NCBI GenBank assembly: GCA_029552945.1
Contig: JAKPDD010000021.1
Location: 1-64,000 of the forward strand
Length of the DNA stretch: 64,000 nucleotides
Reading direction: 5' to 3'
DNA from: Spirochaetota bacterium
GTDB lineage: Bacteria > Spirochaetota > GWB1-36-13 > JAKPDD01
Positions 28,096 through 30,297 of the stretch are shown piece after piece. The notes below the pieces were generated by a model, which saw nothing but the letters and a program-made list of their open reading frames with translations, did not search any database and was not told the origin of the DNA. Each line of letters starts with the position of its first letter. The stretch's first letter is position 1. Both the position numbers and the translations under genes were made by a program.

Positions 28096-28126
28096 TAAAA
28101 AAGAGGGGCGTACGAAAAGCCCCCTT
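28096..28126 (-). terminator. Intrinsic terminator of the ADH-synthase/DHQ-synthase II operon
   Basis: On the minus strand GGGGGC-TTTTCGTAC-GCCCC is followed by TCTTTTTT. The stem abuts the stop codon of the dehydroquinate synthase II gene. Confidence 0.9.
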
Positions 28127-29117
28127 ACTTTTCGTTTATACTCTCTTTTATTTTAAAACCAAAGTGTCTACCACCCTCCTCTGTATAACCCAAAACTTTA
28201 TCCCCCTTCTTAAGATTAACTACTGATATTGGCTTACCATCAATACCAGTAAGCCTTATTGTTTCAGCATTCTGAAGAATTATTGATACCTCTTTATTAT
28301 CAACTCTTGCTGTAATATTAAGCATAGGCCTTTTTTCAATTTTTACTCTACCAACAGATGTTATTTTTGTATTTCCCTTGTAATCAACAATAAGAAGTTC
28401 ATCCCCAGTCCTAAGTTCATCAAGATATTTTGTCTTACCATCAGGCAATAAGATATAAGCATGAACAGCACCAGCATTAACTCTAAAGGGTCTTGGTGAA
28501 ACATAAGGATTTTCAATACTCTCAGAATGTACAAGAAAAAAAGCATTACTATAATTGCCAATAAGCATACCTTCTCCAATACTCATATTTGTTATAGTAT
28601 CAATACATACTCTATCACCAATAGCAATTTTTTTTACATCTTCTATTATAAACTCTCTTACATCAACCCTTACGCCCGAATTTTTAAACACATCTGTTAT
28701 CTCTTTTATAACAAGTGGGTCGTTAGTATTTATTATAATACCATACACTCCTTTCTCCAATATGCCTGATGCTGTTTTAGCATCTTCTAGAGTTGAAACC
28801 GGGTATATTATCTTTTTATTCTGGGCAATAAGATTTTCAAGCGGAATTATTGACCAATCCTCTGTTCTTACTATAACTATAGTATCATGATTAAGTGATG
28901 CTATATATTCCTCATCTTTTTTAGACTTTATGTTTATTTCAAGAACATCTTTTCCCAATAAAAGATCACTATTTTTATCAGATACAGTAATAACAAGTCC
29001 TAATTTTTTTGTTTTTTCAACATCATCACTTTTAAGCAAAAACGCATCAATACCAGACTCAATAGCTGTTGTTATTATTTTCTTATCCCATTTTCTTGCA
29101 TCAACCCAAACTTTCAC
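28125..29117 (-). CDS. 3-Dehydroquinate synthase II (archaeal type)
   Basis: NAD-dependent enzyme that oxidatively deaminates and cyclises 2-amino-3,7-dideoxy-threo-hept-6-ulosonate to 3-dehydroquinate, the alternative to AroB. The 330-residue protein begins [13 protein letters not shown] and carries the family blocks [56 protein letters not shown] and [10 protein letters not shown]. It is unrelated to classical AroB. Its ATG overlaps the ADH synthase stop by 4 bases, so the two steps are translationally coupled. A terminator follows directly. Known mainly from archaea and a scattering of bacteria. Confidence 0.95.
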
Positions 29118-29917
29118 TTTATTTCTCCCTTCATTATTTTTATAGCCTGTTCAATGCTTACATTATCATGAACTATAGCTTTTACAGCTCTTGTCATTGC
29201 AACAGGGTCTTTATGCTGAAAAATATTTCTACCTATTGATACACCAGCACCACCTGCTTCAACAGCATCTTTTATTATTTTTAAAACCTCTTCGTCAGAT
29301 TCAGCTTTCTCTCCCCCTGCTATAACAACAGGTATATGTGTCCCTTCAACAACCTCTCTGAAACTCTCTTTATCACCAGTATAACTTACCTTGACTATAT
29401 CAGCACCAAGCTCACCTGCAACCCTTGCTGCATGCTTAACAAGTTTAGGGTCACAGCTATTCTTTATATTTTTACCTCTTACATACATCATTGCAAGTAG
29501 AGGCATATTCCAGTATTCACACTCTCTTGCTATCATACCAAAGTCTTTTAACATCTCTTTTTCATCATCAGCACCAAGATTAACATGGATAGAGATAGCA
29601 TCAGCACCCAATCTTATAGCCTCTTCAACAGTACAAACCAATACTTTTGAGTTAGGATCAGGGCTTATCGAAGTACTTGCTGAAAGATGCACTATAAGCC
29701 CTATGTCTTTACCCCTTCCCCTGTGGCCAGCTTTAACATTTCCCTTATGAAGGACTATTGCATCAGCACCACCCTCTGCTATTTTAGAGACAGCACCCCT
29801 TAAATTCACAAGGCCTGGTATTGGGCCAGAACTTACCCCATGGTCAAGAGGTACAATAACAGCCCTGTTTGTCTCCCTGTTCATAATCCTTTCAAGCCTT
29901 ATCATTTTTCCTATCAT
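29114..29917 (-). CDS. 2-Amino-3,7-dideoxy-D-threo-hept-6-ulosonate (ADH) synthase
   Basis: Class I aldolase condensing L-aspartate semialdehyde with 6-deoxy-5-ketofructose 1-phosphate, the first step of the archaeal-type aromatic pathway. The 267-residue protein is close to the methanogen enzyme in layout: [69 protein letters not shown], the Schiff-base Lys in [25 protein letters not shown] and [13 protein letters not shown] 29917 has AAGGAGGA upstream. The two genes form an operon behind a structured leader with an internal terminator, so regulation by premature termination is likely. Confidence 0.95.
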
Positions 29918-29965
29918 ATTTTCCTCCTTAATTTTAATTTTTTAATAAATAGGAAAAACCACAGG

Positions 29966-30087
29966 GAGGAGGGTGCTTAAGCCTGAAATTTAAAAAAGCC
30001 ACAGCACCCTTCCTCTATGGTAGGGCCTGTGGCTTCTCCTACTTTTAATACTTATGAAGCCCTAATATCCCCCCATAGAGGTACCAT
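29966..30087 (-). promoter_or_regulatory. Structured attenuator-like leader of the aromatic-biosynthesis operon
   Basis: Read on the minus strand, four segments can pair in mutually exclusive ways. Segment A, CCTCTATGG (30081-30073), is a perfect complement of B, CCATAGAGG (30020-30012). B lies in the loop of a terminator hairpin (29992-30034) whose 3' arm GAGGAAGGGTGCT (30015-30003) is also complementary to segment D, AGCACCCTCCTC (29977-29966), with one bulged base. A:B or terminator:D pairing would oppose the terminator. A tiny frame, MVPLWGDIRAS (30087-30052), spans segment A but has no visible ribosome site. No T-box sequence or known riboswitch consensus was recognised. Control by aromatic supply is inferred from the genes below. 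Confidence 0.6.
29992..30034 (-). terminator. Internal intrinsic terminator within the ADH synthase leader
   Basis: AGCCACAG-GCCCT on the 5' side pairs with AGGGTG-CTGTGGCT on the 3' side, giving a 13-base stem with a small bulge and an 11-base loop, followed at once by TTTTTT. It stands about 75 bases before the ADH synthase start, so it would prevent expression unless opposed by the alternative pairings. Confidence 0.8.
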
Positions 30088-30297
30088 AATAATAAAACCA
30101 AAAATAAAAGAAGAAGAAATAGTAGAAATAATAAAGATTTTTTGCCTTTTTTATAGAATCAGAAATATATAATAAGATGTGAGTTGTATTCTTTTCTTTT
30201 CCCAAAACAAATTCCTGTTATTTATTAATAACTAAAATTTAAAAGTAATCTATTTTTTATAAAAAGTCAAATTTTTTATATAAAATTTTCTATAAAG

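Follow-up and report, generated by a model that had tools for sequence, protein, structure and literature searches.

Upstream of an archaeal-type entry into the aromatic pathway, the minus strand of the window (the whole 64-kb stretch of DNA analysed) carries a leader with mutually complementary segments. The question raised by this locus is which signal the leader could read and in which direction this signal would act on the genes behind it. The leader precedes a two-gene operon, the products of which make the common precursor of Tyr, Phe, and Trp. The following features define the operon and its putative start.

29114..29917, minus strand: 2-amino-3,7-dideoxy-D-threo-hept-6-ulosonate (ADH) synthase, first gene (TIGR01949, 384.8 bits, cut-off 299.45)
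28125..29117, minus strand: 3-dehydroquinate synthase II, second gene (NF002627, 452.7 bits, cut-off 392)
29923..29929, minus strand: ribosome-binding site of the first structural gene, AAGGAGG, read from the sequence
30265..30270, minus strand: -35-like TTGACT of the putative leader promoter, followed 17 nt further by a weak -10 (TACTTT)

A TTGACT is also found at the matching relative place in L002, the only relative of the same order that was found (ADH synthase 70% identical), and there it is followed by TATAAA. A strict consensus scan of the leader called neither a promoter nor a terminator. The upstream neighbour on the same strand is the der gene. The GC content amounts to 47% over positions 29952-30081, to 17% in the leader upstream of that stretch, and to 28% in the whole window.

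The source genome is 99% complete. Its sole PF00793 match is a 333-aa protein that we judged by eye to be NeuB-like by sequence, and an ordinary DAHP synthase was not seen in this genome. With the only PF00793 match being NeuB-like, the aromatic pathway appears to have ADH synthase as its only entry. Genes for chorismate synthase, prephenate dehydratase, and a chorismate-binding (TrpE-type) protein are present, which fits a working aromatic pathway. Around the trpE-type, aroC, and prephenate dehydratase genes of the source genome no comparable leader was found, and a search for repeats of the leader elsewhere in this genome returned nothing beyond short matches. Upstream of the trpE-type gene starting at position 1838 of L080, also part of the source genome, tandem palindromes (GTTTCTATAAATAGAAAC and GTTTCTACATATAGAAAC, 1790-1828) are situated just before the start codon and resemble the operator of a repressor. 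The region upstream of this gene showed no Trp leader peptide; taken together with the palindromes, this means that the trpE-type operon may be controlled by a protein instead.

An earlier note on this DNA, made from the letters alone, had proposed that the leader controls transcription by mutually exclusive hairpins. The segments concerned are listed here from their sequence and from folding.

30073..30081, minus strand: segment A, which forms the 5' strand of the antiterminator; its sequence CCTCTATGG is exactly complementary to segment D (p = 0.002)
30056..30062, minus strand: segment B, GGGCTTC, the partner of GAAGCC in the terminator 5' arm when the antiterminator forms; this pairing belongs to the minimum-energy structure for 3' ends between 30012 and 29997
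30025..30037, minus strand: segment C, 5' arm of the terminator, AGCCACAGGCCCT, with an approximate outer limit (folding)
30012..30020, minus strand: segment D, 3' strand of the antiterminator, CCATAGAGG, within the loop and upper stem of the terminator (sequence, folding, and shuffles)
29992..30010, minus strand: segment E, 3' arm of the terminator and U-run, AGGGTGCTGTGGCTTTTTT (folding)

The strong intrinsic terminator that had been placed ahead of the start codon was found, with its arms at 30037-30025 and 30010-29997 and a U-run reaching to 29992. The 90-nt hairpin stretch folds with -33.5 kcal/mol versus a shuffle mean of -24.3 (z -3.0). Also confirmed was the exact complementarity between an upstream segment (A, 30081-30073) and the terminator loop (D, 30020-30012), which in the window leader exceeded that of 499 of the 500 shuffles. 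The leader has both an intrinsic terminator between the leader ORF and the first gene and an antiterminator that excludes it, and the A:D and C:E folds together with the shuffles support the proposed attenuation. According to the folding, segment A can pair weakly with its own neighbourhood. A strong pause or protector hairpin upstream (1:2, as in E. coli trp) was not seen in the leader folds.

The sensor of this switch would be supplied by a reading frame that starts well upstream of segment A.

30212..30217, minus strand: Shine–Dalgarno-like CAGGAA of the leader peptide, read from the sequence; L002 likewise has CAGGAA shortly 5' of its TTG start
30062..30205, minus strand: predicted leader-peptide ORF with TTG start, 47 aa, MGKEKNTTHILLYISDSIKKAKNLYYFYYFFFFYFWFYYYGTSMGGY, stop codon TAG; its aromatic density was reached by none of 1000 shuffles
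30086..30133, minus strand: control codons, an uninterrupted run of 16 aromatic codons (8 Tyr, 7 Phe, 1 Trp), from a pattern match and a six-frame scan

Codons 25-40 of this ORF read Y Y F Y Y F F F F Y F W F Y Y Y. The pattern for the 16-codon aromatic run gave one match in the 64-kb window and no match in 100 shuffles even when 3 mismatches were allowed. In the six-frame scan of the 64 kb the leader run was the only 12-codon stretch with at least 11 aromatic residues. Eight-codon Phe/Tyr runs are not rare in this AT-rich genome (31 matches versus 38 for the reversed control pattern), and consequently the weight rests on the length, the place, and the recurrence of the run, not on Phe and Tyr codons per se. 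A predicted short leader ORF with a ribosome site, and control codons for the end products of the operon, are what the sequence of a classic attenuator is expected to contain.

The earlier note had instead considered a short frame with a Trp codon. This frame does exist (ATG 30087, MVPLWGDIRAS), but it is not the relevant one, and as candidate leader peptide it was replaced by the frame starting at TTG 30205 with its AGGAA and its aromatic run. The further claims of the note depend on this wrong frame and are not supported. The leader had been described as lacking a ribosome site, which the ORF from TTG 30205 has. Stalling had been expected to favour termination; as the control codons are located upstream of the antiterminator strand, it would favour readthrough, which is the classic sign. 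Finally, a new sensor or ligand had been suspected, and here the leader ORF with its 16 aromatic codons would take the place of the sensor, so that a new ligand class is not needed.

The spacing of these elements is suited to such a switch: the aromatic run ends at 30086, segment A starts at 30081, and the stop codon is situated just past A. We modelled the ribosome on the assumption that its footprint on the RNA extends to 12 nt beyond the first base of the A-site codon. In modelled stalls at codons 25-38 segment A was free, and the probability of A:D pairing was about 1 once D had been transcribed. This probability was 0.66 at codon 39, 0.29 at codon 40, and 0 from codon 41 on; with the ribosome past A the masking model yields the terminator. 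In the model, then, a stall at the control codons frees the antiterminator and a ribosome at the stop codon covers A, which is the geometry of a classic attenuator. When A is free, the fold with A:D and B:C (-29.3 kcal/mol) is of minimum energy from the emergence of D until transcription has gone past 29997. Forcing each of the two folds at the U-run gives -31.8 kcal/mol for the A:D antiterminator and -33.5 kcal/mol for the C:E terminator, meaning that at equilibrium the terminator is still slightly favoured even with A free. From this we infer that the outcome must be decided co-transcriptionally, in a race between the two folds, which is what attenuators of this kind require.

On this computational evidence, namely the anatomy, the complementarity, and the recurrence in nine other leaders described below, we consider it highly probable that the leader is a ribosome-mediated transcription attenuator sensing charged tRNA-Tyr, tRNA-Phe, and probably tRNA-Trp. 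The leader ORF would have to be translated, with a ribosome initiating at TTG 30205 and trailing the RNA polymerase. If any of the Tyr, Phe, or Trp aminoacyl-tRNAs became scarce, the ribosome would stall within the 16 aromatic codons and leave A free, and A:D (and B:C) would pair as soon as D is out. These pairings would occupy the 5' arm and the loop of the terminator, allowing readthrough into the genes of ADH synthase and dehydroquinate synthase II. If the tRNAs were charged, the ribosome would reach the stop codon just past A and cover A, the C:E terminator would form, and transcription would end at the U-run near 29992.

The same plan was found in other genomes. L002 shows the same order of parts: TTGACT, CAGGAA, TTG, LKLSLKNNSFSSLSQTLASYFYSYFWFYYYYSYRSSMRGLKTA, then CCTCTATGAGG matched by CTTCATAGAGG, then a terminator. 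The two leaders have diverged; the Shine–Dalgarno sequence, the TTG start, the aromatic run, and the A:D and C:E pairings are retained. Phe, Tyr, and Trp swap between the two peptides, the aromatic class being kept. In L003, L005, L010, and L011, from genomes of the phylum, ADH synthase is likewise preceded by an aromatic leader with an A:D pair and a hairpin, and so it is in L056-L059 (e.g. MQVRQASFSFYYYFYYPWP), contigs of Desulfobacterota type titled Desulfobacca, Deltaproteobacteria, or Thermodesulfobacteriota. This gives ten leaders including the window, not all of them independent, since L010 and L011 as well as L056 and L057 are close to each other. In every one of the ten leaders no more than 14 of 500 shuffles attained the A:D complementarity. 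In nine of them none of 1000 shuffles attained the aromatic density; solely in L003 was the density of the aromatic ORF not significant (p = 0.09). Sequence and internal loops vary across the ten; constant are the complementarity and the aromatic ORF upstream of it. Outside the pair of window and L002 and the close sister pairs the sequences are too divergent for one covariance model, and conservation was therefore assessed by comparing the complementarity with that of shuffles. This plan is common to two lineages whose leader sequences are almost entirely different.

Within the phylum 22 genomes with ADH synthase were sampled; in 6 of them the leader is present, and in 16 none was seen ahead of this gene. 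Six genomes (G001, G002, G015, G026, G035, and G066) have a second, more distant ADH-synthase-like gene with 56-60% identity to the window protein, and none of these second copies has a significant aromatic leader. The aromatic leaders of L056-L059 end in PWP*, and L057-L059 have a chorismate mutase/prephenate dehydratase-like ORF further downstream. In L060 a short ORF (MKIHFHSWGWPMYFWP) about 95 nt before ADH synthase is possibly a Trp-rich leader; with p = 0.17 its aromatic density falls short of significance, and a terminator is not apparent.

We considered three alternatives to an attenuator governed by a translating ribosome. First, the leader could be a metabolite riboswitch of an unknown class, in which a small molecule, for instance an aromatic amino acid or an intermediate of the shikimate pathway, would bind to the A-D domain and tip the antiterminator/terminator balance. 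The fold with A:D and B:C does resemble an aptamer stem with an internal loop. Moreover, the known classes give no match: at the gathering scores of Rfam 15 no family, the known riboswitch classes included, matches the leader, and the covariance searches agree on this point with the earlier note, which had recognized neither a T-box nor a riboswitch. Aptamers, however, retain a conserved ligand pocket, whereas neither the sequence nor the internal loops are conserved among the ten leaders, and a riboswitch would leave the aromatic ORF unexplained. We regard this alternative as very improbable.

Second, the hairpin could simply terminate transcription of der, with the complementarity being due to chance and the aro genes being transcribed from a promoter downstream of 29992. 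The position of der upstream on the same strand and the empty strict promoter scan would agree with this. The terminator, however, is located about 300 nt beyond the der stop codon, and nine other leaders ahead of ADH synthase have the leader ORF, A:D, and C:E as well, in different sequences, a pattern that the terminator of one particular upstream gene would not explain. We give this explanation just as little chance as the riboswitch. Third, a T-box, in which uncharged tRNA pairs directly with the leader RNA and stabilizes the antiterminator, would suit the kind of operon and the signal (tRNA charging), as in many T-boxes, yet the covariance model RF00230 found no match in the leader, in the remaining window, or anywhere in the source genome, and its probability is next to nil.

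Besides the attenuator proper, the earlier note had pointed to a downstream segment complementary to the 3' arm of the terminator. Such a segment (29978-29966, p = 0.002) is indeed present.

29966..29978, minus strand: segment F1, AAGCACCCTCCTC, including AGCACCC, complementary to E, the 3' arm of the terminator (E:F duplex -19.7 kcal/mol, more than in 499 of 500 shuffles)
29952..29965, minus strand: segment F2, CCTGTGGTTTTTCC, similar to the 3' arm of the terminator and complementary to segment C (whole-leader fold); perhaps a second terminator that has decayed

The CCTGCGG of F2 matches CCGCAGG in L002, where an E:F pairing analogous to that of the window exists with a different sequence. 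Tested separately against shuffles, the E:F complementarity gave p = 0.002 in the window, 0.024 in L002, 0.008 in L003, 0.046 in L011, and 0.02-0.03 in L056-L059; in L010 it was not significant (p = 0.27). These p values are uncorrected for multiplicity. For L005 the figure is the duplex energy, -10.7 kcal/mol over 8 bp. The E:F1 complementarity is thus real in the sequence, and the pairing could form after readthrough. As it would form only after the polymerase has passed the first U-run, it cannot affect the termination decision there.

L003, L005, L010, and L011 have a second U-tailed hairpin between the leader hairpin and ADH synthase, and segment F forms its 5' arm. This 5' arm resembles that of the first hairpin and can pair with the first hairpin's 3' arm; in L005 the U-run is found on the second hairpin only. 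No good second terminator remains in the window and in L002. The layout of the four leaders suggests a relay: an E that is not engaged in the first hairpin would disable the second one. A relayed second checkpoint could accordingly be imagined in which A captures D, the freed E pairs with F mimicking C, and one stalled ribosome disables two terminators in turn, F in the window and in L002 being a remnant of the relay; we put this forward tentatively and regard it as rather doubtful. A second-tier control in which CCTCC in F hides the ribosome-binding site of the gene was considered and rejected. The accessibility of the Shine–Dalgarno sequence did not track the switch, the unpaired fraction being 0.73, 0.67, and 0.45 in three states of the window and 0.05 in the antiterminator state of L002.

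The leader of the window has the sequence-testable features of classic leader-peptide attenuators and adds a new, well-supported case to a known mechanism. Where bacteria have the archaeal-type aromatic entry, this leader indicates that leader-peptide attenuation can govern it. The literature searched, which was covered partially, yielded no previous description of an ADH synthase attenuator. The nearest published case that we located is the uORFC-13-1 motif before aroF in Acholeplasma, with a predicted uORF containing at least one Phe codon and an adjoining terminator, likewise ahead of the first gene of the common aromatic pathway (PMC8632094). This motif is restricted to Acholeplasma and unplaced environmental sequences and controls an ordinary DAHP synthase (PMC8632094), whereas a 16-codon run of Tyr, Phe, and Trp is found here. 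Leader peptides beyond the Proteobacteria were described by comparative genomics in Actinobacteria (PMC1262725) and for his in Firmicutes (PMC2965389); the mechanism is shared, and the parts of these two papers that were available do not report an ADH synthase leader or a mixed aromatic leader.

Among 4227 Rfam models the best one at a loose threshold was Phe_leader (RF01859; 23.6 bits, E 0.1, gathering score 55), matching over the full model length on the right strand. By its anatomy and logic the leader would work like this Phe leader of enterobacterial pheA, sharing the short Phe-rich leader peptide, the switch between antiterminator and terminator, and an aromatic biosynthesis gene downstream, and by the cut-off it is outside RF01859. 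In contrast to Phe_leader, the codons are a mixture of Tyr, Phe, and Trp, the genes are those of the archaeal-type pathway entry, and no strong protector hairpin was seen. What distinguishes the present case is that one peptide would read all three aromatic end products, and this on an archaeal-type pathway entry. Multivalent attenuators in which one leader peptide senses several end products are known from E. coli, namely ilvGMEDA (Ile, Val, and Leu) and thr (Thr and Ile). By mechanism alone, with other amino acids and other genes, these are the counterparts of the leader described here: a single leader peptide for several end products of a shared pathway.
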